A DNA stretch of 26,882 nucleotides, taken from a virus. A program made the translations under genes and the position numbers. Of this stretch, positions 574 to 24,040 are shown piece after piece. Location: positions 1 to 26,882 of IMG/VR virus record IMGVR_UViG_3300043172_000315. One strand, 5' to 3'. The first letter of the stretch is position 1, and each line of letters starts with the position of its first letter. Under the pieces are notes generated by a model. It searched no databases. It saw nothing but the letters and a program-made list of their open reading frames with translations, and had not been told where the DNA came from.

Positions 574-1266
574 ATGGCGGCACAACTGACAGGAACCCTA
601 GCCAATTTCATCGTTAGGATTCGTAGATATATTGGTGAAGAAGACCCGGACAAGAGTTACTGGGACGATGACCTTATCAAACAGGTATTCAACGCTCACT
701 ACCGGAAGCGATGCGCTGAGTTAGTCATGGCATTCGAGGGATACTTTACCGTAGTCGCAACCCGCGACACGGTCACTGCCCAGGAACGATATGCGTGGCC
801 CTCTAACTTTGAACGCCTCCTCAAGATGGAGATAGTTCGAAGCGATGGGTCAACTGTACCCATCCAACGCCAAGAGCGTCACTACCACAGCAAGCCTACG
901 CCAGGGGCTAGTGGAGATACTTATTTCCCTAGCTACCGCTCCATCGGCAGTGGGTTCGTCCTTGAGCCTGCCCCCACGGAGGGTACCGCAGGGCAGCTTA
1001 GGATGGAGTATGTATCCACCCCGGTAGAGCTGACGCTTGACAACGACTCACTACATTCAGACTTCCCCACCATGCTGGACGAGCTGCTCGTTCTGGACAC
1101 AGCGGTGGCGATGTTTGACCAAGAGCAATCACAGGAAGAGGGTAGAGTGAGAAGCCTAATTCGACAACGCGCTGAGTGGGAGCTGACCTGGGAGCGATTC
1201 ATTGATAACCGCATGATCTCCTCCAACAAGGTTACCCCCTTCAGAACGCACTACAACGACGCCTGA
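574..1266 (+). CDS. Head-to-tail adaptor-like protein (gp11 / SU10-adaptor type)
   Basis: This 230-residue protein fits the adaptor that joins the portal to the tail nozzle in short-tailed phages (T7 gp11 is 196 residues). The N-terminal part is helical (residues about 8-55). A YAWPSNFERLLKMEI stretch at 73-87, followed by a turn (SDG), resembles the beta-sheet section of phage adaptors of the SU10 type. The C-terminal half carries a long helix (about 165-215) ending in RFIDNRM. The ATG is preceded by AAAGGAG at seven bases, the clearest ribosome binding site on this strand. Its stop overlaps the next start (TGATG), which ties it to the nozzle-like gene as in T7 genes 11-12. Family assignment rests on motif, length and gene order, not on a search. 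Confidence 0.7.
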   Translation: MAAQLTGTLANFIVRIRRYIGEEDPDKSYWDDDLIKQVFNAHYRKRCAELVMAFEGYFTVVATRDTVTAQERYAWPSNFERLLKMEIVRSDGSTVPIQRQERHYHSKPTPGASGDTYFPSYRSIGSGFVLEPAPTEGTAGQLRMEYVSTPVELTLDNDSLHSDFPTMLDELLVLDTAVAMFDQEQSQEEGRVRSLIRQRAEWELTWERFIDNRMISSNKVTPFRTHYNDA

Positions 1267-3800
1267 TGGGTGGTCGAGAAGCCATACCGTACCTTGATAT
1301 CAAGGGATTCCAGGGGCTCTACACCAAGAGCACCCCGGAAGTACTGGAAGCTGCTCAGCTTCAGATTGCCCAGAACTGCGATTACTTCGAAGAGTACGGT
1401 GCAGTTGCCAAGATCCGTGGTAGCTCCCGTGTACTCGATGAGCCTTACAAAGAAGGTGGCGTCGTCAAGAAGATCTCCTGGGTGGGGGCATACAAGGCCC
1501 CTGATCTGGATGGTACCATCCTGCGGCACACACTCGTAGCCGCTGGTACCTCCATTGGTAAGGTAGAAAATGGGCAGATCACCAAACTGCTGACGGGCAG
1601 GACCGCTGGCCTCTATCACCAAGCGACCATGCAGGACACCCTCATGTACATCTCCAACTACAACCCTGACCGGGTTGGAGAGGGCGATGCTATGATTAAG
1701 TACGATGGCTCTGTCATCACCCAATGGGGTATTACTCCTCCCGGCTCAGAGTCTACCATCGTTGACAACTTCGATGACGCATCTTCGTGGGAGGAGAACG
1801 CCTGCGTACTATCAGATCAATCCAATGTTACCTCTGGCGACGTTACTTGGGACGGGGCAGCTGTAAAAGTAGATCATGAGTTCTATTCCACCGATACCTA
1901 CAGCCTGGAGAAAGCACATCTAGAGTTCTATCCCCAGGGAGATACCAGAAACAATGAAGACGCGATACGGGATCGCGTATCCTTCTTCGCTTACATCCCA
2001 CGAGGGGGACTGACCGCATCTCTTACTAACCCGATAGATGCCGGGTTCAAGACCAGCGGCCCTGCTCTCTCGGTGTTCGTCAGTCCTGACGGCGATACAG
2101 TTGAAGACAACAACTGGCAGTTCGACTTCTCACAGGGGTGGTTAATCGAAGGATGGAATAAGATCAACCTAGACTTCGCTTCGGGGAAACCAGGTGCAAT
2201 ACGAACGTTCTTCACACCGCCGGGACAGGCCACAGGGGACTTCTACCCCGAGACTGATTCAATCAAGCGCACACGCTTTGAGTTCTATATGTCTACGGCT
2301 CAAACGACTCTTAACGGGATCCGGGTGGATCGCTACGAACACTACGACGAAGGAGCGCCAGTCGCTTCACCGTCGGGAGATGGCGATATCTCGGGTGTAT
2401 ACAGTTACAAAGTTATTTATGTTAGTAAGTATGGTCAGTATAGCAATACTGGTCCTAAGAGTGTTGATGTTACTGCGAATAGTAACGCCCAGATCGACCT
2501 CGCGCGGATCCCTGTCTCATCGGATACGCAAGTGGTGGCACGGAGACTCTACCGAACGGTAGGCAATGGGTCGGTGTGGTTGTACCTCACTGAGATCCTT
2601 GACAACACTTCCACCACGTACAAGGACATCACTGCGGACGGTAGCCTCGGTAACGAGACTGCGCCCCAGGCAGGTGACTACGCTGACGACAACTCGGTCC
2701 CTCCCAAGTGTGGTATCGTCAAGGCATGGAAGAAGACGATCTTCCTGGCCGGTGACCCACAGAACCCGTACACCCTGTACTACTCTGAAGACGACGAGGG
2801 CGAGAGCTTCCCGCTCATCAACGCTCTGGAGCTGGACGAGAAGATCACAGGGATCTATGAGTCCTACTCCGGGCTGGTCATTGAGACTGAGACCGGCAAG
2901 TGGCAGCTCATCGGGAGCAACCCTGACTTCTCGCTCGACAAGATCATCCACGGTGTAGGCTGCGTGGGCCGCAGGGCCTGCGGTACAGCCCGTACTGTAG
3001 GGTTCTCGGTGGATCGGGACGGCATGCGGACCTTCGACCTCAGTGAGACCAAGAAGATCAGTGAGCCTATCCGTGACATGTACGATAACGACCTCAACAA
3101 GGCCAACATCGAACTGATCCACGCACACCACCTCAGGTCTAAGAACTGTATCTTGCAGTTCAACCCCGACGCCGATGGAGACTACACCTCTATCTGGGCG
3201 TATCAGTACCCCATGGATGATGTTGGAGTAGGGTACTGGTCCACAGTCGTCACCCCTACAGCAGCCAACCTCAACTTCCTCGACGCTGAAGAGGTCGAGG
3301 ACGAAAATGGGACGTTCAAACTCTACGCAGGAGGGGCTGATGGTATGCTGTACCATCTGTTCGACGACTCGTCCAAGAACTGGGTAGACGCTAACGGGAC
3401 AGAGTACGCCGTCGATATGCAGGTTCAAACCCCGTACCTGAGGGTTGGGTACCTAGGTGCAGAGGTAGAACAAGCTTCTGGTAGGATCAACCCCCATACG
3501 TTAGAGCTGCGGATAGGCGATGACGACGCCTGTATCTGGACCTGTACAGTAGAGACAGCTAGAGGTATCCAACAGACTTTGGCTACTGATTCTAGCATAC
3601 TGGAACTGGAGTTCGGGACGAACAACTCACTCATTAGACAAAGGGTGCCATCGAAGGGTTCTACACCGGCCGAGTACGTCAGGCTGACGCTACAGAACGC
3701 TGAGTTGGATGTCTATTCTAAGCTGTTGGCGGCGAGGTTTTTCTACCATGTCCAACCGGCTTTGTTTGACGAACTCTCTGTCGATAACACGACTTCGTAA
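1266..3800 (+). CDS. Tail nozzle-like protein (T7 gp12 type), beta-propeller-rich
   Basis: The 844-residue product matches T7 gp12 (794 residues) in size and in its place after the adaptor. The N-terminus (DIKGFQGLYT, then AQNCDYFEEYGAVAKIRGSS near residues 38-57) is the usual opening of nozzle proteins. The rest is beta-rich with repeated blade-like units: residues about 490-500 (PYTLYYSEDDEGESF), 530-560 (GIYESYSGLVIETETGKWQL) and 575-600 (FSVDRDGMRTFDLSE). A fibronectin-like section lies at about 370-470; its DNA (2394-2489) has unusual T-ending codons, 21 of 32. The protein probably forms the distal tail tube that carries DNA and holds fibres. A P22-type stabilisation protein is the main alternative. 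Start is the ATG in TGATG; no strong ribosome site precedes it, so translation is probably coupled. Confidence 0.7.
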   Translation: MGGREAIPYLDIKGFQGLYTKSTPEVLEAAQLQIAQNCDYFEEYGAVAKIRGSSRVLDEPYKEGGVVKKISWVGAYKAPDLDGTILRHTLVAAGTSIGKVENGQITKLLTGRTAGLYHQATMQDTLMYISNYNPDRVGEGDAMIKYDGSVITQWGITPPGSESTIVDNFDDASSWEENACVLSDQSNVTSGDVTWDGAAVKVDHEFYSTDTYSLEKAHLEFYPQGDTRNNEDAIRDRVSFFAYIPRGGLTASLTNPIDAGFKTSGPALSVFVSPDGDTVEDNNWQFDFSQGWLIEGWNKINLDFASGKPGAIRTFFTPPGQATGDFYPETDSIKRTRFEFYMSTAQTTLNGIRVDRYEHYDEGAPVASPSGDGDISGVYSYKVIYVSKYGQYSNTGPKSVDVTANSNAQIDLARIPVSSDTQVVARRLYRTVGNGSVWLYLTEILDNTSTTYKDITADGSLGNETAPQAGDYADDNSVPPKCGIVKAWKKTIFLAGDPQNPYTLYYSEDDEGESFPLINALELDEKITGIYESYSGLVIETETGKWQLIGSNPDFSLDKIIHGVGCVGRRACGTARTVGFSVDRDGMRTFDLSETKKISEPIRDMYDNDLNKANIELIHAHHLRSKNCILQFNPDADGDYTSIWAYQYPMDDVGVGYWSTVVTPTAANLNFLDAEEVEDENGTFKLYAGGADGMLYHLFDDSSKNWVDANGTEYAVDMQVQTPYLRVGYLGAEVEQASGRINPHTLELRIGDDDACIWTCTVETARGIQQTLATDSSILELEFGTNNSLIRQRVPSKGSTPAEYVRLTLQNAELDVYSKLLAARFFYHVQPALFDELSVDNTTS

Positions 3801-4927
3801 TGTCCCAGGTTACCAATCCCCACCTGAATTCTCAGGTGCGGCTGAAGAGATGGCCCCCTGGGCGGGTCGCTCAGCTCAAGCTGTTCCTCGGACACTTGGA
3901 GCAGGCCGTAGGAGTGTCACTTGCCTCGCAGGTGGAACAGTCCCCCAAGCGCAAGTTCTCTGAGTTCGTCCCGAAGATCGTCCCTCAGGATGTGACGACT
4001 GATGTGTCCTACCGTGAGGTAAGGATCACTTTCATACCGCCTAAGGGGTTGAGGAACCTACTGTTCTACGAATACGATATCAGCGCCACCGAGGGGTTCT
4101 TCAATCTCGATCGCTTCAACTCCCCAGAGCCGTTCTTCCTCTGGCCGAACCTAGCCGAAGGGGTTACCTACTACCTCCGGATCAGGGTCGTGACAAAGAA
4201 CGGAGAGGTGGGGCCGTGGTCTGACACAGAAGCAGTGACCACCCCATTCACCCAGAACTACGGGTTGTACGACGGCACAGTGCATTCGTATGGTGTGAGG
4301 GGGGGCGAATTCTATCTCTGGACGGCTGTATGGGACAGAACCTACAACGCTATTGGTGGTCATATGTACTACGCTGTGGACTACTCAGTAGAACCTATGC
4401 GTAACTGGTCGGGTAGGTACTTCGGTGAAGGAGGGCAGCAGGAAGGAAACATCGAGTGGTGTGATCTTGCATTCAAATGGATGAGTAAGTTAGATGGGGA
4501 GGAACAATACACCCAGACAGGACACACCATGTACACGACTACGTACGCCACAAACAAAGACTTTGGTAACTCCGGTTTCTATACCTTCAACGTTGTCACC
4601 CCTGGGTTTACTCCGTATGAGTGGCCACCCGGTCCTCCGGAGGGGCAGTACGATGCAGGCCTCCGTCTGCCTGGGCGGTGGGTGCTTCCTAGGCGAGGCA
4701 CGTTGGTACACCCCCTTCAACTGCTACCTGCCGGAACCCATAGGTTTAAGCTAGAATGTAGAGTGTTGCCGCATGAAGAGGATGACATAGGAGGGCCTTA
4801 TCCTAATGACTTCGAACCTGTGATAGGGAGTAAGGGCGATAACGCAACTAGGTTCAAATATGGGGCTGACTGTAACGTAAGTATAAAGAACTTCAATATC
4901 TTTGAAGCGCTTGTGGATACAACATAA
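3800..4927 (+). CDS. Fibronectin III-containing tail protein, paralogue 1
   Basis: First of three adjacent genes with the same layout. The 375-residue product has a basic helical N-terminus (about 1-55), a fibronectin type III-like beta-sandwich (about 58-149, with FYEYDIS, YYLRIRVVTKNG and GPWSDTEAVTTP) and a beta-rich C-terminal domain of unknown fold (about 150-375). In phages such domains are usually surface-exposed on tails or fibres and may bind cell-surface carbohydrate; here that is an inference. The FYEYDIS and VRV/IRV..G motifs recur in the next two proteins, so the set arose by duplication. The start overlaps the nozzle stop as TAATG and the end overlaps the next start in the same way. 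Confidence 0.7.
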   Translation: MSQVTNPHLNSQVRLKRWPPGRVAQLKLFLGHLEQAVGVSLASQVEQSPKRKFSEFVPKIVPQDVTTDVSYREVRITFIPPKGLRNLLFYEYDISATEGFFNLDRFNSPEPFFLWPNLAEGVTYYLRIRVVTKNGEVGPWSDTEAVTTPFTQNYGLYDGTVHSYGVRGGEFYLWTAVWDRTYNAIGGHMYYAVDYSVEPMRNWSGRYFGEGGQQEGNIEWCDLAFKWMSKLDGEEQYTQTGHTMYTTTYATNKDFGNSGFYTFNVVTPGFTPYEWPPGPPEGQYDAGLRLPGRWVLPRRGTLVHPLQLLPAGTHRFKLECRVLPHEEDDIGGPYPNDFEPVIGSKGDNATRFKYGADCNVSIKNFNIFEALVDTT

Positions 4928-5811
4928 TGTCTGGTGAATTTCTAAGTGGGTTCTCAAAGTTCTTCACAAACCTGACCACGGCACAGCGTCAGGAGCTGGA
5001 CCGTGCGTTCGCGGATATCCAAAACTCCAAAGAGATGACCAGCCTTGATACCTCCCTCCAGAACCTTAGGAGAAAGCCTGACCAGCTGCTGCCTATACCC
5101 CAGCTTGTAGTGACAACTGCCATTAGGGGTGCAACTGTTGAGTGGACACCATTGCCGGATCAAAGGATCAACTTCTATGAGATAGACATCTCAACTTTTA
5201 GTAACTTTGCATCGAAGACTTTGGTCACTACCTTTGGAGTGGACGTTGTAATAGATGGGTTGTTGGCCACTAAGTATGTCAGGGTACGAGGAGTGCGACG
5301 GGACGGTACTACAACGCCATACTCAGAGACCATTACAGTAACACCTCAGGCCTTTTCTATCAATGCACGCGCTATTGAATCATTTTATATCCAGCTTACA
5401 GGCACCTCCTCACACTCAATATTAGGAGGCGCCGGTACAGTTATGGAATACACCCCGATCAACGAAGACGCTAACAGCATGTGCTGGGGTTTCTTTACCG
5501 CGTATGGAGATCCTGCTACTGCCATGATGGGTAGAAGTGAGATCATTGTAGCAGCTTATGTCACCAAGACGAGCGCTACAGGCAGTGTCCTATCCTTAGA
5601 AGAGATGTGGAGAACTACCCTAGGAGAAGGTTGGAACTCCCTAGATATAGGACCGTTCGTAATAGGACACCCTCCGATTGGAGGGTCTATCAAAATAGAA
5701 GTATGGGGACAAGATGGGACTACTGACGAGAACGGAGACCCGCGTATTGCGGGTGACAATACCCTCATTACGTGGTGCCATTTGAACGTATTTGAAACAG
5801 GTAGCAGCTGA
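4927..5811 (+). CDS. Fibronectin III-containing tail protein, paralogue 2
   Basis: This is the shortest of the three related tail genes, 294 residues. A helical N-terminus (about 1-55, including TTAQRQELDRAFADIQ) leads to a fibronectin III-like domain (56-140; FYEIDIS, KYVRVRGVRRDGTTTPYSE). A compact beta-rich C-terminal domain follows (about 150-294; SIKIEVWGQDG, then NTLITWCHLNVFE). The domain order equals that of its neighbours, while the C-terminal parts differ greatly in length and sequence. That pattern suggests a shared anchor (N-terminus plus fibronectin domain) carrying different distal heads. Start and stop both lie in four- to five-base overlaps with the flanking genes (TAATG, TGATG). 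A function in host binding or tail decoration is inferred from context. Confidence 0.68.
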   Translation: MSGEFLSGFSKFFTNLTTAQRQELDRAFADIQNSKEMTSLDTSLQNLRRKPDQLLPIPQLVVTTAIRGATVEWTPLPDQRINFYEIDISTFSNFASKTLVTTFGVDVVIDGLLATKYVRVRGVRRDGTTTPYSETITVTPQAFSINARAIESFYIQLTGTSSHSILGGAGTVMEYTPINEDANSMCWGFFTAYGDPATAMMGRSEIIVAAYVTKTSATGSVLSLEEMWRTTLGEGWNSLDIGPFVIGHPPIGGSIKIEVWGQDGTTDENGDPRIAGDNTLITWCHLNVFETGSS

Positions 5812-8231
5812 TGGCTAGACGAAGAAACGCACTAGTTCATAGATTCTCTAGGATGAGAGGGCTCCCTCCCGAGGAGAGAGCCTTGATGATGAGGATCGGC
5901 GACCTGATGGACGTGGCGCTAAACAACCGCCAAGCAAGTAACCCCTTTGAGCCCCGTCGGAATAAGCCAAGCCGTGTGATCTATCCGCCTACTGGTTTAG
6001 CAGCAGCCACAGGAATTAAAGCTGTCAAGCTAACGTGGACAGCCCCTCCTTCTGATGAACACCTTCGGTATGAAATCGAAGTACTAAACATTGCCAAGGG
6101 TACTACTGAGACTAAGACTAGCTTCACTAACAACATTACCTACTACGGTTCGGGTGGGATCTACGAGGCTAAGGTTCGGTCTGTAGGTAGGGACGGCTCA
6201 TCCTCTACCTTAGAGAAGATCACTTTTGATATAGGTTCCGATGTCATGCAGCTCGAAGGAGCCAAGCTAGCCGTGGATGAGCTAGGAACTTTGGTACAAG
6301 ACGACATCCTACACCTGTCAGGCTACAAGATCTTTGTGTGGGGCTCAGTGGTCATTGATGAGTACATCGCAGGTGCAGGGAACCCGGACATTGTCTTCAA
6401 GCTATGGCGAAAAGAAGGCGATGATGCTACGTTTACCGCCGGTGGGGCCGCGCCTCTAGAGTTGATGGAGACTATCGTACTGTTCCCCGCTACAGCAGAT
6501 GCATCCAACCTCAGCGCCGACGCACTAGGAGGGCAGGAAGGGTACACAAGGTTCCCTGTCCCTGAGTCACTAGGAAGTGTGCGCACAGGCAGCTTCGGTA
6601 CAGCCCAGTCCGTGATGTTCTCCCCAATCCCCGTAGCGGCAGACGAAGTGGATAAGCGGTGGACCTATTTCCTACAGGCAGTGAACCGTGAATCTCAAAG
6701 CGACGAAGTGGGTCTGTCTATCACGATCTGGGCAGGGGCTGAAGGTGCAGCTAACGCCCAGCCGGGTGATCCTTACGTAGCTCCGACTCCGTATAGTGGC
6801 TTACATCGCAACCATTTCCACACTTGGAATCACTACGAAGAGGGCCACGGTCCGAACGACTGGGACTCTAGGTGGGCGGTGGCTCAAATCCTTGAGGGTT
6901 ATGTACTTACTGCCAATTCATGGACACTCAACCTTTGGTGGCGACCTGACCGAATGGACCATTTCGCTCAAGAAGAGGATGTTAATAATTACCCCGCGGC
7001 GATGTCGGTATTCCAAAGAGATTCTTTAGTCCACACAGTTCCGCATGATGACGCGCATAACCAGATAACATGGGTCGTTACTGTTAGACAAAGAGACTTC
7101 GATCAAGAGTGGCAGGGTGATTACCAGTCCCAGGGCTGGGTTCATCAAATGGATATCGGGGTGGGCTCAAGGTACGGGGCGGATGCTGAGGACTTCGGAG
7201 AGCGCATTGGAATATCTCACTCAACCCGAGCACTAATAATGGACGACGAGAAAGGTATATCGGCGCTTTTTCCTTGGTCTGTGCATCCTGACCACTATTC
7301 TGCAAGTACTAATGACGGATGGTACTTTACCTCGATAAACTTCGAAGGTTCTTTTAATGAAGACCCCAACGGCCCTCCGAAGCTACGTGTTTGGCAAAAC
7401 ATCGGGGTGAGTACAGACCCCGAAGACATGTTCAACAATGCCCCACCTGAGTTTCACAAAGACGGTATGAGACAGCTAGAATTCTTAATCGAAGACCCTG
7501 ATTTGATTTATGGGGAGAACAACACGGATTTCTTCGGCGACCCCCTACCAGACAATAGAATTGGTCCTATGTATATGAATAACGCGCAGTTTCTCCACAT
7601 CTTTCCCATCGTTCAGGATGACAAACTTGATCGTATTCAAGGGTTCGGGTGTACGTTGTCCCATGCCCACCGTCTAGGGCAATACGATGGGAGTGGGGAG
7701 AATGTCAGCGCATTCGCAATCCAGTTTTATCAAGGAGGGCTTTGGAGTACGTCGATGGATTCTTGGGACGGTATTACGAACAGCGAAAACGGTGGGTACG
7801 CCACAAACTTAGGCGGTGTTATGATTGCATACCTATACAACGAAGGGAGAGGCTATGTTCCCTGGTGGTCACAGAACGCAGCACCCACAGTCGAAGGGCA
7901 GGAGTATGTCCTCGGGGGTAGCCTATGCTCACATTGGCAGTTTGGACAAGTAGCAAGCTCTTTCTATCTCCATGAGGCGTTGAGAGATACTGGGTGGTGG
8001 GTGTACGGAGGGTCTCTGAACATGACCTCTGAGATCTTCCCCCATGCGGAAGGACACGAAGGCAACAGCCCTCTGGAGCCTACCCTAGGCCCTGAGAGCT
8101 GGGGAAATACGACAGGTATCTGGGACGTGAGAACCCCATCGCGTTTCGGGTCAACGACCGAGGGGGCTGGGCCAAATGGGACTACAAGGTCACCTATTTG
8201 TTATCCGGGGATGAATATGCCCATCGGATAA
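5811..8231 (+). CDS. Large fibronectin III-containing tail protein, possible receptor-binding protein (paralogue 3)
   Basis: The 806-residue product starts with a very basic stretch (MARRRNALVHRFSRMR), then the helix and fibronectin III-like domain seen in its two neighbours (56-141; RYEIEVL, YEAKVRSVGRDGS). The rest is large, beta-rich and full of Trp, His and Asp. The segment around residue 371 (SWTLNLWWRPD) looks like a concanavalin A/laminin G jelly-roll strand, which would suit glycan binding; this is a weak call. The long variable C-terminus makes it the best candidate in the window for a receptor-binding tail protein. No S74 or other maturation domain is seen in it. It is the last gene before the largest gap in the structural operon. 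Confidence 0.68.
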   Translation: MARRRNALVHRFSRMRGLPPEERALMMRIGDLMDVALNNRQASNPFEPRRNKPSRVIYPPTGLAAATGIKAVKLTWTAPPSDEHLRYEIEVLNIAKGTTETKTSFTNNITYYGSGGIYEAKVRSVGRDGSSSTLEKITFDIGSDVMQLEGAKLAVDELGTLVQDDILHLSGYKIFVWGSVVIDEYIAGAGNPDIVFKLWRKEGDDATFTAGGAAPLELMETIVLFPATADASNLSADALGGQEGYTRFPVPESLGSVRTGSFGTAQSVMFSPIPVAADEVDKRWTYFLQAVNRESQSDEVGLSITIWAGAEGAANAQPGDPYVAPTPYSGLHRNHFHTWNHYEEGHGPNDWDSRWAVAQILEGYVLTANSWTLNLWWRPDRMDHFAQEEDVNNYPAAMSVFQRDSLVHTVPHDDAHNQITWVVTVRQRDFDQEWQGDYQSQGWVHQMDIGVGSRYGADAEDFGERIGISHSTRALIMDDEKGISALFPWSVHPDHYSASTNDGWYFTSINFEGSFNEDPNGPPKLRVWQNIGVSTDPEDMFNNAPPEFHKDGMRQLEFLIEDPDLIYGENNTDFFGDPLPDNRIGPMYMNNAQFLHIFPIVQDDKLDRIQGFGCTLSHAHRLGQYDGSGENVSAFAIQFYQGGLWSTSMDSWDGITNSENGGYATNLGGVMIAYLYNEGRGYVPWWSQNAAPTVEGQEYVLGGSLCSHWQFGQVASSFYLHEALRDTGWWVYGGSLNMTSEIFPHAEGHEGNSPLEPTLGPESWGNTTGIWDVRTPSRFGSTTEGAGPNGTTRSPICYPGMNMPIG

Positions 8232-8242
8232 TGGAGAAAAAC

Positions 8243-8271
8243 CTGCAATTTCCCGTGGAAATTCCTATAAT
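8243..8271 (+). promoter_or_regulatory. Possible sigma70-type promoter overlapping an inverted repeat
   Basis: The 74-base gap before the internal virion genes holds a perfect TATAAT (8266-8271) with CTGCAA (8243-8248) 17 bases upstream. The -35 match to TTGACA is only 3 of 6, so this is a weak promoter by sequence. A perfect inverted repeat occupies the spacer (8247-8253 and 8257-8263). The same general design, TGCAA plus 17 bases plus TATAAT with GGAAA just upstream of the -10, occurs in the minus-strand site at 24000-24028. Confidence 0.35.
8247..8263 (+). other. Perfect inverted repeat / small hairpin in the intergenic gap
   Basis: AATTTCC-CGT-GGAAATT: seven paired bases with a three-base loop. 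No U-run follows, so it is a poor intrinsic terminator. It could be an operator inside the promoter-like element, an RNA processing or attenuation hairpin between the fibre genes and the internal virion genes, or chance. The gap also holds a 15-codon reading frame (8231-8278) that overlaps the previous stop as TAATG but has no ribosome site. Confidence 0.45.
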
Positions 8272-8305
8272 TATGTAGGAGACTGCTCAATAAGGAAGCG
8301 GCAAT

Positions 8306-9682
8306 ATGACAATGTATTCCAACGCGAAGGGCATAAAAGAAGCCAAAGAAGCTGCTGGTGGTATGCAGTATGCATCCTCAGCAGGCTTTGAAGCCGTCGC
8401 AGCCCAGACAGCTAGGAACCAAGCTTCCGAGGACGCCAAGTCAGAGGTCTTCAACCTCCTAGGTCAAGCGGGCACCTACGGCCCCGGATCTGAGAGCGGT
8501 GTGGGCTGGGAGAACCTCACCAACGTAGACGATCCCAGCTCCATCTATGACACCTCAGGGCTGGGGCTCTCACAACCTGACCAGAACCTCAAGCAGGGTA
8601 TGTCCTATTCCACAGGGAGGAAGGGTCTCCTAGGTACAGCTAGGACAGGTATCCTAGACCCCAAGGCGTACGCATCTGAGGTCTCTAAGTCTGCCTCCTT
8701 CCGCACCCAGAGCAAGCAGGTGGCTGAGGCAGAGCAACTCCTCAACCAAGAAGGCCCTGCCTGGGATGAGCTGAGTGGCGGCGTTCATGGGGCGATAGGT
8801 GAGGGTTCAGCTATACAGTTAAGGGACACCTTGAGACAGCTCAGGAACAACGCCGCCAAGGGGGGTGGTGCTCGCCGCGCTTCGATGAACGAGATGAACA
8901 CCATCCTGGCTCAGGAGAGAGCGCAGCGCACGCGTGTAGAGAACACATGGAAGGCTAACCTTTCTTTGTTCGACACGGTAAGAAAGAATGCAGACAGGGT
9001 ACAGGCAGGCACTAGAAACTTCATGGCTAGCCTCCCCCTAGTGAACGACCAGTTCCGAGCGGCTATGAACAAGACAGCCGACATGCAGATGAACGCAGGA
9101 GGGATGCTCGCCAACGTGCTACAGAATTCCTACGCAGTCAAGCAGTCCCAGCAGGCCGTGAACTTCGGTGAGAATCTGGCTGAGGGTCTGATCGGTGCTG
9201 TTGCTTCGATGATCCCCTACGTAGGCGCGATCCTCGGACCCGCCATCAAGGAGGCTGGGGCAGGAGGTGGGTACGGTGGCTTTTCGTCTGGTGTTGACGC
9301 GGCGGGGAATCCGTACGCGAATTCTGGAGTTGCATCCTCTGGCGCTGGCGCAACTAGTGGTCCCTCCGCTGGCATCGTAGGCATAGGTGAGGGTGGTGGT
9401 GGGAATGGACAGCTGAGTACTGGTCAGATATCAGCAGGGTACAACGCCGTGACCAATACAATAGGCAGCTGGTCTGACGTACGCATGAAGGAAAACATCA
9501 CACCCGTAGGCACAGAGAAGGGCTTCAACATCTACGAATTCAACTACCTGGGAGGTACGCAACGGTACCAAGGAGTACTCGCGCACGAAGTTTATGAAAC
9601 ACACCCCGAAGCAGTAGGAGAACGTGAAGGTTTCCTGACCGTTAACTACGACATGCTGGGTATTAAAATGAGGACCGTATAA
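8306..9682 (+). CDS. Internal virion/ejection-type protein with C-terminal S74 intramolecular chaperone domain (paralogue A)
   Basis: The 458-residue product has an Ala/Gly/Gln-rich helical body (about 10-290), a hydrophobic segment (about 291-318, GLIGAVASMIPYVGAILGP), a Gly/Ser linker, and a C-terminal domain (about 388-458) of the peptidase S74 / endosialidase chaperone type. The self-cleavage pair is visible: Ser390 in SDVRMKEN with Lys395 five residues on, the spacing known from endosialidase (Ser911/Lys916). Cleavage before Asp391 would release about 68 residues. Residues about 80-300 match the next gene product closely, including GLGLSQPDQ, GLLGTARTGILDP and SYAVKQS. The body plus position suggest a T7 gp14-like ejection protein; the S74 domain is more common on fibres. 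AAGGAAG stands seven bases before the ATG. Confidence 0.72.
   Translation: MTMYSNAKGIKEAKEAAGGMQYASSAGFEAVAAQTARNQASEDAKSEVFNLLGQAGTYGPGSESGVGWENLTNVDDPSSIYDTSGLGLSQPDQNLKQGMSYSTGRKGLLGTARTGILDPKAYASEVSKSASFRTQSKQVAEAEQLLNQEGPAWDELSGGVHGAIGEGSAIQLRDTLRQLRNNAAKGGGARRASMNEMNTILAQERAQRTRVENTWKANLSLFDTVRKNADRVQAGTRNFMASLPLVNDQFRAAMNKTADMQMNAGGMLANVLQNSYAVKQSQQAVNFGENLAEGLIGAVASMIPYVGAILGPAIKEAGAGGGYGGFSSGVDAAGNPYANSGVASSGAGATSGPSAGIVGIGEGGGGNGQLSTGQISAGYNAVTNTIGSWSDVRMKENITPVGTEKGFNIYEFNYLGGTQRYQGVLAHEVYETHPEAVGEREGFLTVNYDMLGIKMRTV
8547..8700 (+). repeat. Diverged direct repeat, copy 1 (with 9917-10070)
   Basis: The DNA coding for DTSGLGLSQPDQ and GLLGTARTGILDP is shared with the next gene, with long identical runs (for example GGGCTCTCACAACCTGACCA). 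Together with a second shared stretch near 9128/10512 this shows that the two genes arose by tandem duplication. Confidence 0.7.
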
Positions 9683-10866
9683 TGGCAGAACCCACAAACT
9701 CTGGAGTACTCTCCAACAGGAAGGGCGTACGAGAAGCCAAAGAAACTGCGGGTGCTATGCAGTACGCAGGTACTTCTGGCATGGAAGCCGCCGCTGCATA
9801 CCAAGCACAGCTGATGGCAGCTGAGATGGCACAGATGCAGGTCCAAGGCATGCTTGGAGCCCCTGGCACCTACGGCGCAGCAGCTGGTACAGGACAACCC
9901 GGCTCTGTTACTGGTGTCATGGATACCTCAGGGCTAGGGCTCTCACAACCTGACCAGGGTCTAGCCCAAGGACTCAACTACTCAACCGGAAAGAAGGGCC
10001 TCCTAGGCACAGCGCGCACGGGTATCCTTGACCCGGAGGCATACGCTGCATCGCTATCTAACTCCGCTTCGTTCCGAATTCAAAGTAAATTGACAGCAGA
10101 AGCCGAGCAGATGGCGAACCGGGAGGGTGAGCTGTACGAGAAGCTTGAGAACTCTATCATGGGTGTTATCAGTGAGGGTGCGGCCGAACAACTCAAACAT
10201 GCGATGCGCGAAGCACGTAACCAAGCTGCTAAAGGTACTACCGGAGCTAAAGGAGCGAGGCGCGCAGCGTTCCAGAACGCCAGAGAGATCAACATCATAG
10301 AAAACTCCATGAGAACTAAGATCCAGATGGCTTGGGAGAAGGCCGCCGAGTTCCAACAGATGATGTGGGCACAAGTTGATAACGTGCAGGCGGGTAACCG
10401 AGAGTTTCTAGCCAACCTCCCCTTGACCAACAGAGCGTTCTTGGATGCAGTAGGGGAGTCGGCCAAGATGCAGATGGAAGCGGGCTTGATGTCAGCAAAG
10501 ATTACACAAGCCTCCTATGCAGTCAAGCAGTCCATGCAGCCTGTCAACTTCGGTGTTGGATTTGCTGAGGGTCTGATCGGTATGGCGACCAGCTGGGGAA
10601 CAGGACAAGCAGGCCAGTTCGCTGCGGATCCCGAGGGGTATACACAAAGAGCGGCTGAAGGGCTCAGAGCTGGCACGGAGTATGCGAAGGGCTTGCTCGG
10701 AGGAGATGTAAAGGATGCGGAGGGTAATCCAACCGGAGCTACCTACCAAGATCCACTACAAGGCCCCGCTACACCTACGGGCATGGGTCCGATTGATACT
10801 TATAATGAAGGCGCAATGGGATCCGCTTGGAGTAGCATTCTAGGCTGGGCAGGAGGAAACAAATAA
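9682..10866 (+). CDS. Internal virion/ejection-type protein, paralogue B without S74 domain
   Basis: The 394-residue product is a paralogue of the preceding one: same opening (SNRKGVREAKETAGAMQYA against SNAKGIKEAKEAAGGMQYA), same GLGLSQPDQ and GLLGTARTGILDP blocks, same SYAVKQS near residue 280 and same hydrophobic helix (FAEGLIGMATSW). After about residue 310 similarity stops; the end is Gly/Pro/Thr-rich and has no S74 domain. It carries more Met and Glu in its helical middle (about 130-260). It is likely a second ejection protein that assembles with the first or replaces it in part of the complex. The gene is coupled by TAATG at both ends. Function is inferred from context and composition, as internal virion proteins diverge quickly. 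Confidence 0.7.
   Translation: MAEPTNSGVLSNRKGVREAKETAGAMQYAGTSGMEAAAAYQAQLMAAEMAQMQVQGMLGAPGTYGAAAGTGQPGSVTGVMDTSGLGLSQPDQGLAQGLNYSTGKKGLLGTARTGILDPEAYAASLSNSASFRIQSKLTAEAEQMANREGELYEKLENSIMGVISEGAAEQLKHAMREARNQAAKGTTGAKGARRAAFQNAREINIIENSMRTKIQMAWEKAAEFQQMMWAQVDNVQAGNREFLANLPLTNRAFLDAVGESAKMQMEAGLMSAKITQASYAVKQSMQPVNFGVGFAEGLIGMATSWGTGQAGQFAADPEGYTQRAAEGLRAGTEYAKGLLGGDVKDAEGNPTGATYQDPLQGPATPTGMGPIDTYNEGAMGSAWSSILGWAGGNK
9917..10070 (+). repeat. Diverged direct repeat, copy 2 (with 8547-8700)
   Basis: Partner of the 8547 stretch, coding for the same protein blocks in paralogue B. Differences are mostly at third codon positions, which points to selection on the protein since duplication. Confidence 0.7.
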
Positions 10867-12488
10867 TGGCAAAACCGAGAACTCCAGTGGGACAATTTGA
10901 TCCGACAGGCTATGAAGCAGAAGCAGAAGCCGAGGCGGATGCACCTACGACGACAAATACGGGAGCACCTATACCTGTACCGTCGCCGCAATCCCTAACC
11001 CCGGAACGGCCTGAGATAATTGCTGGCCCCTTGGCTAGGGGGTTGCAAAGCGCTCTCATCGGTCAGGCATTTGAGTCCTTCGGCAAAGCCTTCAACGGTG
11101 GTGGGTACACCCCAGTAGGGCAAGCAGTACAGCCGACGCCAGGGATGGCGAACTGGCGCAATGCAGGCCAACAGGTGCAGAAAGCACTGGAGGCACGCTG
11201 GTACCAAGCAGAGTTGAAGAACTTCCGCAACGCAGAGCTGAAGGAGATGCAGACCAACATGCAAGGGCTCATCGAAGAGTCCAAGTTTCACAACAAAGAG
11301 CTGAACCGGGGGCGGTGGCACGAAGCTGGCCCCGAAGGAGAAGTAACTATACTAGATCTGAGCACAGAAGAGGGTCGTCTACAACAGGTAGAGCTGCGAG
11401 GGCAGCTGCAAGCAGACATGATCAACCGCGTTGGGGAGATGCAGATCGCCCTTGGTAACGCTGCGGCTGAGAAGTACCGAATGAACCCCCTCATCAACAA
11501 GATGGTCGCGGATCTGTACAAGCACACCTCCAATTCCTTGGTGACACAGTTCAACCCGCAAGCAGCACAGAAGACAGCTGAATCAATGTCTGGCCTACGT
11601 GTGGACGAGGCTAAGATCCGCCAGATGGACGCACAAGGCAGGGCATCTGACGCTCAGGCCAAGGCTGCGGGTACCAAGGACCCCACGGGCCTCCGTGCTG
11701 CGTACGACCAAGGTGGTGCTGGCAGGCTGGATGAGTTCATCAACGGCACTGATTCAGGCAACTCTCTGTGGATGCAAAACAGAGATAGGTATGATGAAAG
11801 AGTCAAGCAAGACTTCTACCGGAAGTGGCGCGCGACGAAGGGTAAGAAGGTCACGGTCAACGCGCAGGCGAAGATGGAAGCTGACTTCGACAAGAATCAG
11901 GATCGTCTTACCAAGTTGGGACAGTATCATTGGATCAAGGACACGTTGGGGGAGGAGGTTGCGAACGAGTTCTCTAAGGCGAACCCTGGTTACGGCCCCG
12001 AGGATGAGGGTCCGGTAGATTTCGCTGTCAAGGGTGCTGTGGAACCGAAGGCTGCGAAGCAGAAGGCCGAGAAGTTCGCAGGCATCGCACTGGACAAATA
12101 CGCCGAGTGGATGGCCGAGCAAGATCCGGAGGAGGCAGGCTTCGAAGATGGCGTCGATTTCATCATGAAGGAGTGGTTGCCTGCGGCTCTCGCTGGTACG
12201 CTTGATCCCACGGTTGAGGTACATGCTGAGTATATCTCTGACAACCTCACCGCCGGTGAGACTAAGGCGACAGCTGAGTACAGGGCTCTTGTACGCTCAA
12301 AGATCCTGGCTCAACTAGAATCTAAGGCAGGCTCTGGTAAGGGTGGCAAGGGGCTGAAGGAGCACCAGAAGGCTCCCAAAGCACCGCGCGGCCCCAAGGG
12401 TGGGCTAACTAGGGCTGTCAAGGGTTTGTTCGGTGACGATACTTACTCTGAAGAGGCACCTCCGCAACCGTCCGAACCTACAATCTAA
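10866..12488 (+). CDS. Internal virion protein (T7 gp15-like position)
   Basis: I recognise no named domain. The 540-residue product is hydrophilic and mostly helical, with an acidic Ala/Glu repeat early on (EAEAEAEADAP, about 18-28), a Pro-rich stretch to residue 50, then long Gln/Ala/Lys helices (about 90-330) that look coiled-coil in part. The C-terminus is Gly/Lys/Pro-rich (KGGKGLKEHQKAPKAP near 495-510) and ends acidic. Its place between a gp14-like pair and a 1211-residue protein mirrors T7 genes 14-15-16, so it is probably the middle component of the DNA-ejection complex. Start overlaps the previous stop (TAATG). Confidence in a virion role is fair; the exact part is inferred. Confidence 0.65.
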   Translation: MAKPRTPVGQFDPTGYEAEAEAEADAPTTTNTGAPIPVPSPQSLTPERPEIIAGPLARGLQSALIGQAFESFGKAFNGGGYTPVGQAVQPTPGMANWRNAGQQVQKALEARWYQAELKNFRNAELKEMQTNMQGLIEESKFHNKELNRGRWHEAGPEGEVTILDLSTEEGRLQQVELRGQLQADMINRVGEMQIALGNAAAEKYRMNPLINKMVADLYKHTSNSLVTQFNPQAAQKTAESMSGLRVDEAKIRQMDAQGRASDAQAKAAGTKDPTGLRAAYDQGGAGRLDEFINGTDSGNSLWMQNRDRYDERVKQDFYRKWRATKGKKVTVNAQAKMEADFDKNQDRLTKLGQYHWIKDTLGEEVANEFSKANPGYGPEDEGPVDFAVKGAVEPKAAKQKAEKFAGIALDKYAEWMAEQDPEEAGFEDGVDFIMKEWLPAALAGTLDPTVEVHAEYISDNLTAGETKATAEYRALVRSKILAQLESKAGSGKGGKGLKEHQKAPKAPRGPKGGLTRAVKGLFGDDTYSEEAPPQPSEPTI

Positions 12489-12497: not shown

Positions 12498-15400
12498 ATG
12501 GGTCTGTTTTCCCAAGACGACAATGAGTCTGAAGGTCTGTTCACCGAGGGTGGCACGGAACGTAGCACGAACTACGCCAAGGGCAAGGGCAAGAAGTCCA
12601 AGCCCGAGTTCAAGGACACCGAGCTGTCCGCTAAAGGCTTGCAGTTCACACAGACTTCCGTGAATATCCTAAAAGGTAAGGAACCTCAAAGGAAACAAGC
12701 CTTCGGTGCTGATGGTGAGTCTCTGTTCTCAATGGACGAGCCGCCTAAGACCATCGAGATGGACGCCGTTATCTCCCGCATCCCTGATGAGGACAAGTCC
12801 AGCATCGCTTCCAACACTATGGAATTCCTGTTCGGGCCTGAGCTGGGGCTGATCGGGGTTGCACATGACGCCGAAGGTTGGTCATGGTCTGTTGACAACA
12901 TGCAGCAGCAGTGGTCTGAGAACCCGCTGTGGGTCAACGCCCTCGCCACTACCTCCCTGGTAGGGGCTCTCCTACTGCCCTCCGCTATGGCTGTGCGCTC
13001 CTCCATGAAGGTTGGAAAGCTCGCAGGCAAGGCGGGTAGACTCGCCAACGAAGCAGACGAGATCGCCAAGTGGCATACGAAGGGGTTGATCGCCGACCAG
13101 AACGTGAAGGCGTACTCCCAGCTAGGTGGAGACTACGAGAAGACAGTCCAGATCCTACGCAAGCAGGAGGTTTCCCTTGACCGCTATACTGCCATGAAGA
13201 CCCGTGCCCAGCGGGCGCAGAACGGTGAGCTAACCTGGGGTAGCCCTGTCGAGAAGATACAGCATGAGTTCGACAAGCGCTTCGCTCAGACGTACAACAA
13301 CATGATTGGGAAGGCAGGCAACGGCGACATCAAGGGTCAGTTCCATGCGAACCATGAAGCACTGTGGAAGAACGACACCATCGGTACCATCCTAGGTGAC
13401 ATGCCCGATGAGGCCGCAGGCCCTGCCATCTACGCCTACCTTATGGCGAAGAACGGCCACGTACCTGCCGAGGGTGCCAAGAAGTTCGGTAAGCTGTCCG
13501 AAACAGACAGGATCTGGGCCGACTTCTACTTTGAGAATGCGTCGAAGCAGCAGCTCAAGATGATGGAAGACGGGTTCATTACCCCCGAGACCTACAAAGC
13601 CGTCGGTGCCATGCATCTCCCGGCTCAGAACATAGGTTCTATCGACCCCATGATGGACGTTGGGCGAATCCAGATGGTACCTGTCAGCACCCTCAAGAAG
13701 CGGAAGGGTGTGGCTGGTATCGTAGAGCATACTGAAGAGCGCACAGGCCTCGGTCGGCTATTCGGTAAGACTAAGACCACATACAAGCCCGAGGGTGAGT
13801 TTGAGTACGTGGCTGTGAAGATGGACGCGCGACCCAGGCTGGACAGCACCACGCTACTGCACCGCTCAGGTACCAACGATGAGATCTACGACCGCTTGAT
13901 GAGTGGTCAGCTGATTACGGATCCGGCCGATGTCTCGACAAGAGGATTCATGCTGGACGGGTTGCTACACACCAACTTCAAGCTCGTACGTGACCTCGCC
14001 ATGGACAACAACTACATCGCCAGCGCTGCGGACATAGCAGCGTGGGGCGGCAACGCTAAGAAGGCAGCGAAGGCTGGCTTTGTACGCCTGGACTACGCAG
14101 GGGACGGCGCAGCTGCTACCTTGCGCCGCATGATCGCCAAGAAGAGTGGTCAACCTGAGCAGGAGCTGCCTTGGATCCGGAAGGCTGTCTTCGATGACAT
14201 CTTCGGTGAGAACGGCATGATGGCCCAGACCACCAGTGCTGGCGGCGACATGATGGACGTGATGACTACCATCTACAAGACGATGAAGACGGCTGGTAAC
14301 ATCCCCACCCACCTTCAGAACCTCACAGGTAATATGATCTTCCTCAGCCAAGCAGGCTTCAACCCCGTGGCCCCGCAGAACGTGGCGCTCATGGGCAAGC
14401 TTACCAGCACCTTCAATACCATCGCAGACATCAACCGCGCAGGCCAGAAGGCAGGTATCAAGGGGCGGAGCCTCTTCGATCCCAAGTCTGGCATGCTCAA
14501 AGGCGTGGACCTGGGCAAGATCAAGGTACGCGGCAAGACATTCGACATGAACGAAGAGATGTTCGATCCGATCATGAGAGACTTGATCGAGGAGTCGGCG
14601 TTTGAAAGTGTCGAGGGTTCCGGTCACCTAGAGAGGATCTTGGGTAGATTACGTGAAGATCAGCACTCGACAAAGGCTATGATTAAGCTGTATATGAAGG
14701 GTAAGAACGCAGCCCAGCTGGGCGGCAAGGCACCTTGGTTCGACAAGCTGACCAAGGCGTACCTCGGAGAGGACATGGTGCCCAAGATGGCGTACTTCAT
14801 GGACCTTAGAGGGCAGGGGTTGTCCCGTCAGGCAGCGGCCACTGAGGTGGCTAGACGCCTGCCTATGTACGGTACGGTTGGCTCAGCGATTAAGAGTACC
14901 CGTAAGTTTGCGTTCCCGTGGGCCACCTTCCCTGCTGAGGCCATGCGTATCACTAAGAACAACATCCAAGACCACCCGCTCCGCATGATGCCGTGGCTGA
15001 AGGCACCGCAGTTGATGCAGTCTATCTTCAGTGGTATGGGTTACGCCGAGGATCCGACGGGTGTAGCGGAGGCCAAGAGGCAGCTCCCCACCTGGGCACA
15101 GACACCCGAGACCGTGATAGCAGAAGGAGGCGCCAGTGGGCTCTTCGGCGGTGGTATGACAGGTGCTATCGTAGGCGGTGCTATCGGTGCCGCAGTCTCT
15201 AGAACTGCTGGCGGTGCATACGCAGGCATGGCGGCAGGTGCAGCCCTAGCTGGCACGGCGGTAGCGTTGACCACAAGTGAGGAGCACGACAAAGAGATAC
15301 GCGGTGCGATCATGAACTTCCTACCCCACTCCACCTTCATGCTGGCTTCCAACTCGATTGACTTCGGCGGGGAATACCTGCCTTTCAAGGACATCCGGGG

Positions 15401-16133
15401 TGCTATTGAGCAGACCCCTGCTGAGCCGCTGGCTATTCTCAAGCCTCTCGTTTCTGCCTTCTCTGGTGAGACCCCCCAAGGTGAGCCTGTAGGTAGTGGT
15501 ACCCTAGGCAGTGGTGTAGCCAAGTCCCTAGCGGGCATGCTAGGTTTCCTAGCACCCCCGCTGTTGCAGAAGTACGGCATGAAGCTGACCACCCCCGACG
15601 TACCCATCTGGGGAGACCCGACAGGTATGACCAATATGTCCCGGTTCCTTACGGACACGGGGCAGGCTGTTGATCCCATGACAGGGCGACCGGGGAGTAT
15701 GGGCCAGGACTTCTTGCTTAACAACTTCGGTGCCTGGAAATCGTACGCCGCTAGTGGGGCACAGCAGCTGGCAAACGAGGCGAGGGCTGACAGCCACTTG
15801 GAAACGATCCGGAACAACCTCACGAAGAACCTCAAGTACCACCTTGAGAATCAGAATGAGAAGGACGTGGTCAGTATCCTCAGCAACGTGCAGGCTACCT
15901 TCGCCAACCAGTACGTGTATGACCCGCTGCTTGCACAGAACAAGTACACTGAGTGGCTGGAGCGGCACGCTGAGACTATTGGTAGGCACCCGAAGCTCAG
16001 GGCCTGGAGTGCAGAAGAGCTGATCGCTAGGCTGCAAGAAGCTGGGGAGCTGGCAGGGTATGCCCGAAGCCATGCCCGCACCAAGCTACTTGAGGCACTA
16101 AGGAATGAGATAATGCTAAAGGGGGGTGGTTGA
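12498..16133 (+). CDS. Large internal virion/ejection protein (T7 gp16-like size) with hydrophobic and glycine-zipper segments
   Basis: At 1211 residues this is the largest gene on the strand and close to T7 gp16 (1318). The N-terminus is acidic and disordered. A hydrophobic segment lies at about 144-168 (ATTSLVGALLLPSAMAV). A long glycine-zipper stretch at about 877-930 (GGGMTGAIVGGAIGAAV, then GMAAGAALAGTAVAL) is of the kind found in membrane-inserting proteins. Between them is a helical body of about 700 residues. I see no lytic transglycosylase motif, unlike T7 gp16. Probable role: cross the inner membrane and form a channel for the genome during ejection. The start has AAGAGGT six bases upstream, the only gap (nine bases) in this part of the operon. 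It ends in TGATG with the next gene. Confidence 0.68.
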   Translation: MGLFSQDDNESEGLFTEGGTERSTNYAKGKGKKSKPEFKDTELSAKGLQFTQTSVNILKGKEPQRKQAFGADGESLFSMDEPPKTIEMDAVISRIPDEDKSSIASNTMEFLFGPELGLIGVAHDAEGWSWSVDNMQQQWSENPLWVNALATTSLVGALLLPSAMAVRSSMKVGKLAGKAGRLANEADEIAKWHTKGLIADQNVKAYSQLGGDYEKTVQILRKQEVSLDRYTAMKTRAQRAQNGELTWGSPVEKIQHEFDKRFAQTYNNMIGKAGNGDIKGQFHANHEALWKNDTIGTILGDMPDEAAGPAIYAYLMAKNGHVPAEGAKKFGKLSETDRIWADFYFENASKQQLKMMEDGFITPETYKAVGAMHLPAQNIGSIDPMMDVGRIQMVPVSTLKKRKGVAGIVEHTEERTGLGRLFGKTKTTYKPEGEFEYVAVKMDARPRLDSTTLLHRSGTNDEIYDRLMSGQLITDPADVSTRGFMLDGLLHTNFKLVRDLAMDNNYIASAADIAAWGGNAKKAAKAGFVRLDYAGDGAAATLRRMIAKKSGQPEQELPWIRKAVFDDIFGENGMMAQTTSAGGDMMDVMTTIYKTMKTAGNIPTHLQNLTGNMIFLSQAGFNPVAPQNVALMGKLTSTFNTIADINRAGQKAGIKGRSLFDPKSGMLKGVDLGKIKVRGKTFDMNEEMFDPIMRDLIEESAFESVEGSGHLERILGRLREDQHSTKAMIKLYMKGKNAAQLGGKAPWFDKLTKAYLGEDMVPKMAYFMDLRGQGLSRQAAATEVARRLPMYGTVGSAIKSTRKFAFPWATFPAEAMRITKNNIQDHPLRMMPWLKAPQLMQSIFSGMGYAEDPTGVAEAKRQLPTWAQTPETVIAEGGASGLFGGGMTGAIVGGAIGAAVSRTAGGAYAGMAAGAALAGTAVALTTSEEHDKEIRGAIMNFLPHSTFMLASNSIDFGGEYLPFKDIRGAIEQTPAEPLAILKPLVSAFSGETPQGEPVGSGTLGSGVAKSLAGMLGFLAPPLLQKYGMKLTTPDVPIWGDPTGMTNMSRFLTDTGQAVDPMTGRPGSMGQDFLLNNFGAWKSYAASGAQQLANEARADSHLETIRNNLTKNLKYHLENQNEKDVVSILSNVQATFANQYVYDPLLAQNKYTEWLERHAETIGRHPKLRAWSAEELIARLQEAGELAGYARSHARTKLLEALRNEIMLKGGG

Positions 16134-16845: not shown

Positions 16846-17045
16846 TCTTCTTCCTCACCATCGTACTCAGTAGGGTATCCCTCTAGATCGTTCATGATCC
16901 GGAATCCAAGCTCGTATAGCTCTTCTTCATCTTCGGTATCATCCGGGGCATAGTACACCACGTCCAGGGACGAGGACTTCTGACAGCTCACGCAGAGAAG
17001 CCCGTTCTGGGTGTACCTACCGCACTTACATCTTACTAGCGACAT
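16842..17045 (-). CDS. Small zinc-ribbon protein with acidic tail
   Basis: The 67-residue product opens with a compact metal-binding motif: C6-x-C8 and C18-x2-C21 (RCKCGRY...LCVSC), which fits a small zinc ribbon. After residue 34 it is strongly acidic (DDTEDEEELYE, ending EYDGEEED), as in proteins that contact nucleic acid-binding partners or mimic DNA charge. It is the last gene of the leftward operon, and its start lies 20 bases inside the end of the glycosyltransferase gene. A GGAG stands ten bases before the ATG, a little far. No function can be assigned. Confidence 0.65.
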   Translation of the reverse strand: MSLVRCKCGRYTQNGLLCVSCQKSSSLDVVYYAPDDTEDEEELYELGFRIMNDLEGYPTEYDGEEED

Positions 17046-17772
17046 GCTGTAGCTTCTCCAAGTCAGAGCTTACTGGGAAGTTGTTGATCGGCGCTCGCAA
17101 GATAGGTAGTTCTTTCAACAGGTCGAAGGGTACCAGCTCTCCTGGGTGGTACGTGCCTTGTGCCTTTCGATCTAGCCTCTTAGGTACCGACCCCTCCAAG
17201 GGCGAACGTAGAGCGTTGTGGAAGTGCCAGCACATCACATCATCAAGCTTGAACTCATTGCTTTCCTTCTGCCTGTATCGAGGCGCTTCTCCTGGGTGGT
17301 TACCGATGAAGTACGCATTCCTACGGTACAGGCGGTGGTGGGTGCGCTCGTCTGAGTAGCGGTGGAGCAGGTTGGTCGCCATCTCGGTGCGCTTGAACAC
17401 CCCATACTTCAGCTCAGTGAGGCTCGATGTTCTTGTCAACGCATCAAACCCAGTAGTCAAGGCGTCCAGGCTGGTGGGGTGGTACACCTCGTCGGCGTCC
17501 ACCATGAACGTCCATTCTGTCTCGGCCTCCACCAGCATGCTGTTGCGGTAGCACCCTTGGATGTCAGGCACTGCGAACGGTAGCCTGCGGACGAAGATCT
17601 CAGCTTTCTCTGTCTCCACGAACCAGTCAATGATGTTCTCGGTGCCATCCTCACTACCTGCATCATAGATCACGTACCGATGAAACCTACCACGTAGCGC
17701 CTCAAGGGCGTACGGAAGCCAGTACTGATCGTTCATCACCAAGATGGTGGGTGTCAACCCTTCAATCTTCAT
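17026..17772 (-). CDS. Glycosyltransferase, GT-A fold (family 2-like)
   Basis: The 248-residue product is a nucleotide-sugar-dependent transferase. Seen: an N-terminal Rossmann-type start (LTPTILVMNDQYWLPYALEAL), YDAGSEDGT at 36-44 for nucleotide binding, and the metal-binding DXD in FMVDADE (Asp92 and Asp94). A later KLDDVMCWHFHNALRSP stretch is typical of the acceptor side of small GT2-like enzymes. It lacks membrane segments, so it should act in the cytosol. It overlaps the upstream Cys-rich gene by 11 bases and is preceded by AAGGGGAT. With three other transferases in the same operon it probably adds one sugar of a short glycan; donor and acceptor are unknown. Confidence 0.85.
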   Translation of the reverse strand: MKIEGLTPTILVMNDQYWLPYALEALRGRFHRYVIYDAGSEDGTENIIDWFVETEKAEIFVRRLPFAVPDIQGCYRNSMLVEAETEWTFMVDADEVYHPTSLDALTTGFDALTRTSSLTELKYGVFKRTEMATNLLHRYSDERTHHRLYRRNAYFIGNHPGEAPRYRQKESNEFKLDDVMCWHFHNALRSPLEGSVPKRLDRKAQGTYHPGELVPFDLLKELPILRAPINNFPVSSDLEKLQHVASKM

Positions 17773-23980: not shown

Positions 23981-23999
23981 CTCTCTCTCCTATGTCTCT

Positions 24000-24028: not shown

Positions 24029-24035
24029 GGAAAAC
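24007..24035. promoter_or_regulatory. Inverted repeat around the -35 box, operator-like
   Basis: GTTTTCC (24007-24013) and GGAAAAC (24029-24035) form a perfect seven-base inverted repeat separated by 15 bases, which enclose the -35 element and reach to within one base of the -10. The position fits a repressor or activator site better than an RNA hairpin, because it lies upstream of the expected transcript start. Confidence 0.45.
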
Positions 24036-24040
24036 TGCAC

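Follow-up and report, generated by a model that had tools for sequence, protein, structure and literature searches.

Two adjacent genes of a virus, designated A and B, would on balance be best explained as duplicated ejection proteins, of which A has gained a small C-terminal S74 domain that probably cuts the chain between Trp389 and Ser390, and B has kept the older tail of the family. The window, i.e. the whole stretch of DNA that was analysed, is the 26,882-nt virus record IMGVR_UViG_3300043172_000315 (positions 1 to 26,882). Gene A (8306..9682, plus strand, 458 aa) was recognized by its open reading frame, its paralogy to B, its S74 matches and its synteny with single-copy relatives, and its product, which ends in a mini-S74 domain, is probably an ejection (internal virion) protein of a podovirus. 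On the same strand the following parts of A can be distinguished: a body common to B and the relatives (residues 3-301, 8312..9208), recognized by sequence match and modelled, with low confidence, as helical; a hydrophobic, Gly/Ala-rich segment (residues 296-314, 9191..9247); the predicted self-cleavage point W389/S390 (9470..9475), placed by analogy with P586/S587 of MyRF and by an invariant Ser column; and the mini-S74/ICA domain with Ser390 and Lys395 (residues 390-458, 9473..9679), identified by profiles and a model. Gene B (9682..10866, plus strand, 394 aa), a paralogue without S74, was assigned from its open reading frame and its match to A, and its tail can be aligned with the tail of the relative L025. 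The stop codon of A overlaps the start codon of B (TAATG), which gives a one-base gene overlap.

The genes are ordered as an SU10-type adaptor (230 aa), proteins of 844, 375, 294 and 806 aa, A, B, and proteins of 540 and 1211 aa. The head-tail adaptor (574..1266, plus strand) matches Pfam SU10_adaptor PF24175 (E 2.6e-14), and the 844-aa protein in the tail or nozzle position (1266..3800, plus strand) matches PHROG 511, labelled internal virion protein (E 1.2e-15). The 375-, 294- and 806-aa genes (3800-8231) appear to be related genes for fibres or tails: a weak fn3 match in Pfam was obtained for the 375-aa protein, the 806-aa protein matches a 293-aa protein of L027 over 84 residues (30% identity), and the 806-aa gene, with 35-41% identity among the relatives, is more variable than its two upstream neighbours. 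The 540-aa protein (10866..12488, plus strand), the next in the presumed ejection operon, shows 28-30% identity to its positional counterpart in the relatives, and the 1211-aa protein (12498..16133, plus strand), the last large gene of this operon, shows 51-54% and contains a long Gly/Ala-rich stretch near residues 877-925. Neither of these two proteins, nor their versions in the relatives, matched a Pfam, PHROG or NCBIfam family. Scanning of positions 8100-10900 for promoters and terminators gave no signal above shuffles. On the minus strand four glycosyltransferase genes are clustered at 17029-23117, adjoining the virion genes, and one of them encodes 1045 aa with GT2- and GT4-type domains; the region 23110-25932, also on the minus strand, holds dCMP deaminase, nucleotide kinase-like, nucleoside deoxyribosyltransferase-like, DNA polymerase exonuclease and recombination endonuclease VII genes. 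At the edge of the window a Clp protease family protein is encoded (26472-26873, minus strand, Pfam E 6.6e-20).

Residues 3-301 of A and 9-304 of B are 50% identical (155 of the 310 aligned positions, E 3e-90); the homology which the initial annotation had placed at residues about 80-300 was therefore borne out and proved to be wider. Its statement that the two are homologous even at the DNA level holds for the first approximately 30 codons and for codons approximately 252-318, the rest being mostly saturated. Nucleotide identity amounts to 54.5% over 337 codons, and four-fold third positions agree in 39% between A and B, compared with 33% between A and the relative L030; in codons approximately 252-318 the third positions agree in 47-60%. 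The first 30 or so codons (approximately 8318-8410 in A and 9712-9804 in B) are far more alike than the rest, with 74% nucleotide identity and 70% at third positions, and a recent exchange between the copies is a possible origin of this pattern. Kyte-Doolittle means over 19 residues peak at 1.73 in A (residues 296-314) and at 0.86 in B, so the membrane segment noticed earlier in A does exist as a hydrophobic stretch, but a marginal one. As a general feature in front of S74 such a segment was rejected, since only 7 of the 76 S74-tailed bodies surveyed below reach a mean of at least 1.6.

An S74-type domain had been assigned to A only, with Ser390 and Lys395 at the known spacing, and both the profile and the residue pair agree with this assignment. 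The Pfam S74 match in A (residues 390-437) scores 17.6 bits, below the curated cut-off of 22; Pfam alone was hence given up as evidence and replaced by a profile of 63 related tails from which A was left out. This profile matches A388-458 with E 3e-32 (search space set to 38880) and gives no match to B. Additionally, PHROG 6121 matches A (E 5.6e-12), and a sequence profile of the S74 domain matches MyRF (4e-5) and the phage neck appendage 3gud (0.001). The domain consists of 69 residues from Ser390 to the C-terminal end, with Ser390 and Lys395 five apart at its N-terminal edge. The S74 spacing of five is likewise described for MyRF (S587/K592) and endoNF (S911/K916) in the account of PMC8326128. 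Together with core strands that may be equivalent, it is a likeness of A to MyRF, endosialidase, the phage neck appendage and the T5 tail fibre (PF13884).

The distribution of such tails was surveyed in viral contigs, where scanning with A as the query gave 15 coding matches and scanning with ten tails gave 330, and the latter list was cut to 80 loci. In the fetched loci 98 open frames match the S74 profile, 76 after removal of identical copies, and all 76 distinct proteins possess Ser and Lys at +5. Complete short tails, with 64-83 residues from the Ser to the C-terminus, are found in 73 of them; of the other three, one is truncated at the end of its contig and two extend further (98 and 112 residues). 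The pair is also present in all 27 representatives below 60% identity, in which the positions corresponding to Ser390, Asp391, Lys395, Tyr410, Gly423, Val424, Ala426, Glu428, Val429, Val446 and Tyr448 are invariant; for Tyr410 and 423-429 this result is biased, as they stood inside the search patterns, which did not include the columns of Ser390, Asp391, Lys395, Val446 and Tyr448. The same short tail was also seen on longer proteins of 591-1293 aa (loci L004, L005, L038, L041, L042, L051 and L064).

Every invariant column of the family is intact in A, including Ser390, Asp391, Lys395, Tyr410 and Tyr448, A being itself one row of the alignment, and the reading frame stays open through S74 in two records, the window and the near-identical L023. 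These two findings speak against the reading that the tail of A is a passing recombination product, functionless in this virus, which we consider very improbable even though, within the family, only this virus and its near-identical twin carry S74. The G+C content, 48% in the S74 stretch and 57% in the body of A, would also fit a passing product, though the residue make-up of the domain may explain it. A DNA-level search with the S74 stretch found no counterpart in annotated phages.

The model of full-length A has a mean pLDDT of 45.6 and was too poor for a structure search; with low confidence it depicts the body as long helices, almost entirely helical, and thereby predicts a body unlike a beta fibre. 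Comparison of the A/B body with solved structures gave nothing credible (best E 0.37). The mini-domain (A383-458) was modelled with a mean pLDDT of 86.4, and VIA-align against the PDB ranks the ICA domain of MyRF first (50 residues, 1.7 A, 32% identity, model residues 22-71 paired with MyRF 607-678), with a Z of 3.5 that barely exceeds the kinase rows at 3.1. Foldseek of the mini-domain against the PDB returned nothing at E <= 0.001, with kinases in the top rows, and its matches in BFVD are mostly ICA/S74 proteins (best E 8e-9). According to the MyRF data given in PMC8326128, cleavage takes place between P586 and S587, requires S587 and K592 and occurs in trimers only, and the main driver of trimerisation is the alpha4 coiled coil (N670-K705), which is needed for cleavage. 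Protein A ends five residues past the part aligned to MyRF 607-678, that is, about where the MyRF coil begins, so most of the coiled coil is missing in A; no C-terminal trimer coil of the S74/ICA kind was found, and trimer formation by the S74 domain of A alone cannot be assumed. A differs from the S74/ICA proteins of PF13884 in this early end, and also in that no upstream beta-helix is predicted (with low confidence).

The missing coil is the strongest argument against cutting. It would suit a mini-S74 that serves as a permanent docking domain, folding without being cut and fastening A to the portal or core or to some other protein of the virion, and so would the shortness of the domain and its confident folding as a monomer model. 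Pure docking, however, would not require the Ser/Lys(+5) pair, which is invariant in 76/76 and 27/27 proteins, and we regard this reading as unlikely. The same invariance, occurring in coil-less tails on unrelated bodies, is the strongest argument for cutting that the sequences offer. By analogy with MyRF we infer a self-cleavage of A before Ser390, and with it an oligomeric state of A and a purpose of the cleavage, as outlined below.

Concerning the body, A and B sit directly upstream of two larger genes, which are presumed ejection genes by position alone, and no Pfam, NCBIfam or PHROG match names A or B (the body of A falls into 0 PHROG families). The relative L030 has a weak match (1e-5) to PHROG 11550, 'internal virion protein', over a Gly-rich stretch, and the match was not repeated in three other relatives. 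From the position, the low-confidence helical model and the weak match of L030 we infer that A and B are ejection proteins. The initial annotation had presented S74 on an ejection-type protein as exceptional; the ejection type is consistent with position and predicted helices, but the combination is not unusual in itself, since at 44 of the 48 testable loci (those with 3.5 kb downstream, some of them near-duplicates and not all independent) a short S74 tail is followed by two same-strand genes of at least 200 aa each. When the 63 non-redundant bodies were compared with PHROG, several families per body being allowed, 7 fell into family 4287, 4 into 598 and 1 into 21132 (all labelled as DNA ejection), 10 into 6121 and 5 into 8003 (virion structural proteins), and two tail tube families had one member each. 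One body matches Pfam T7_gp14 at 0.0013. The Pfam tail tube family PF23849 is also matched by one of the 63, so putative ejection proteins are not the only carriers of the short tail.

The genes downstream of the tails (42 first and 35 second genes scanned, many without a named match) gave matches to 'internal virion protein with endolysin domain' (3), 'internal virion protein' (2), 'DNA ejection protein' (1), 'DNA transfer protein' (1), two transglycosylase families (1 each) and families 'released from the phage upon host infection' (4 and 1); further matches were to families of portal, baseplate hub, tail fibre and tape measure proteins. In annotated phages the short S74 tail is found on the gene just before an 'injection protein' or a 'P22-like injection translocase', and PHROG already contains 'DNA ejection protein' families with members ending in a short S74. 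Putative ejection proteins with an S74 tail thus recur, and databases already have names for this architecture. The proteins of PHROG 4287, 6121, 598 and 21132 (270-330 aa), exemplified by Microcystis phage Mae-JY35, Rhizobium phage RHph_Y1_10 and Pseudomonas phages PAE2 and AH02, possess the same tail of about 70 residues with Ser/Lys as A, and in RHph_Y1_10 and AH02 the gene after the S74-tailed one is annotated as injection protein. In contrast to the A/B pair, their bodies are not detectably homologous to A and they have no adjoining untagged paralogue. Comparison of the A/B body with the 62 other S74-tailed bodies by hhalign gave a best probability of 3.9%, with reversed controls up to 1.9%. 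A loose motif, G-[ILV]-P...[AS][YF], is present in 8 of these 62 bodies (shuffles average 0.075) and 3 of the 8 A-family rows have it too; having been defined after the sequences were seen, it was given no weight as a shared feature.

S74 is generally taught to be a chaperone of trimeric fibres. A and B might be outer tail or fibre parts with S74 in its usual role. In favour of this are the fibres from which S74 is best known, the three fibre-like genes immediately upstream (with the weak fn3 match in the 375-aa protein) and the lack of a firm family match for the A/B body. We find this improbable, because the body is predicted to be helical (with low confidence), the homologue adjoins the 540-aa-type gene in 4/4 complete relatives, and short S74 tails elsewhere stand mostly in the same operon position.

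The relatives were collected by a body search with A, B and L025 as queries, which found the near-identical twin L023 and six further virus records; L030 is the same contig as L025, and L029 and L032 are cut by contig ends. The complete homologues have 407 (L025/L030), 405 (L027), 397 (L028) and 366 aa (L031). In all four complete relatives a single homologue without S74 lies between the same neighbours, the gene sizes being 366-407 aa for the homologue, 554-575 aa for the next and 1198-1228 aa for the one after it. A search of the whole records found S74 in one of eight, namely in the near-identical twin L023, and one body homologue in each of six other, fragmentary records; the eighth, L026, gave no body match. 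As the records of the relatives are fragments, S74 or a second copy may be present elsewhere in those viruses. No match was found to annotated phages at the DNA level for 5811-12488, nor by tblastn for B and the 1211-aa protein, and the bacterial and archaeal genomes searched contained no relative of the A/B body.

The unrooted tree places A and B on one side of a branch with 100/99 support, with branch lengths of 0.26 for A and 0.85 for B, and on account of its long branch the placement of B is less sure. The body of L025 is 50% identical to A and 38% to B, and the C-terminal tails of L025 and B can still be aligned. When bodies and S74 tails were aligned together, the relatives were wrongly placed on the S74 columns, and this alignment was left out. 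The simplest history suggested by these comparisons would be a duplication in this lineage, a fast-changing B and a gain of S74 by A; alternatively, the duplication may be older and B may have been lost in the relatives. It was also observed that a Trp stands within the last 20 residues of all five complete S74-less homologues (B, L030, L027, L028 and L031), and that Trp389 of A (9470-9472) immediately precedes the predicted cut, so that a cut A would end in Trp. The near-terminal Trp of the S74-less homologues fits a cut at W389, but as a hint at most, given that the sequences are related and contain Trp at other places too.

The pairing of the two copies had led to the idea that S74 drives the assembly of a mixed complex of A and B, in which B would ride along untagged. 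Homology over the whole body is in line with this, as is the one-base gene overlap, which makes co-translation likely; the overlapping stop and start codons fit co-assembly without showing it. Nevertheless, beyond the overlapping genes the idea gained no support: four complete relatives manage with one S74-less homologue, B stands on a long branch (0.85 vs 0.26), and 72 of the 73 S74-tailed proteins have no neighbouring paralogue, hence S74 is not tied to pairs, and we judge such a complex to be a poor candidate. The one exception among the 73 (bodies under 80 aa, tails over 90 aa and open 3' ends were excluded from the paralogue and operon counts) is this virus. Tagged and untagged copies side by side are the rare part of the arrangement, a local novelty.

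Among known ejection proteins, T7 gp14 and P22 gp7 are close in kind: A/B-type proteins are likewise first and smallest in the presumed ejection operon, predicted to be helical, and with a hydrophobic segment. They differ in being about twice as long (366-458 aa vs the 181-240 aa given for this class in PMC8954989) and in being duplicated here, and no sequence match of A or B to T7 gp14 or P22 gp7 was found. The words 'S74', 'cleaved' and 'proteolytic' are absent from the main text of that review of ejection proteins (PMC8954989). The open-licence literature contained no recognisable paper on S74-tailed ejection proteins, which is not proof of absence.

The favoured explanation, duplicated ejection proteins with a self-cutting tail on A, can be put as a sequence of steps. 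A tandem duplication of the first podovirus ejection protein, in the position of T7 gp14 / P22 gp7, would have given A and B; B would keep the untagged form of the family, and A would have acquired a mobile mini-S74 (ICA) cassette at its C-terminus. The cassette would most likely fold as an S74 'donut' and gather copies of A during assembly, after which the Ser390/Lys395 pair would cut the chain before Ser390, leaving residues 1-389 (the helical body with its Gly-rich end) for packaging and shedding the 69-residue domain. Rather more speculatively, the mini-S74 could be a mobile cassette that removes itself and has spread among many podovirus ejection proteins without homology to one another. 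It would need no coil as the body supplies the oligomer, and its cut would serve as a timer, with the mature C-terminus exposed only after completion of the internal core; here, placed on one paralogue, it would divide the role of the first ejection protein between a subunit that processes itself and one that stays unprocessed.

It should be emphasized that the window represents a natural experiment, with tagged and untagged copies in one virus and single-copy untagged relatives as the control. The general question that it raises is that of self-cleavage without a coil in ejection proteins. The counts imply that the coil-less S74 is a routine part of podovirus internal-protein operons, and if the cut does occur, some ejection proteins would mature by self-cleavage.
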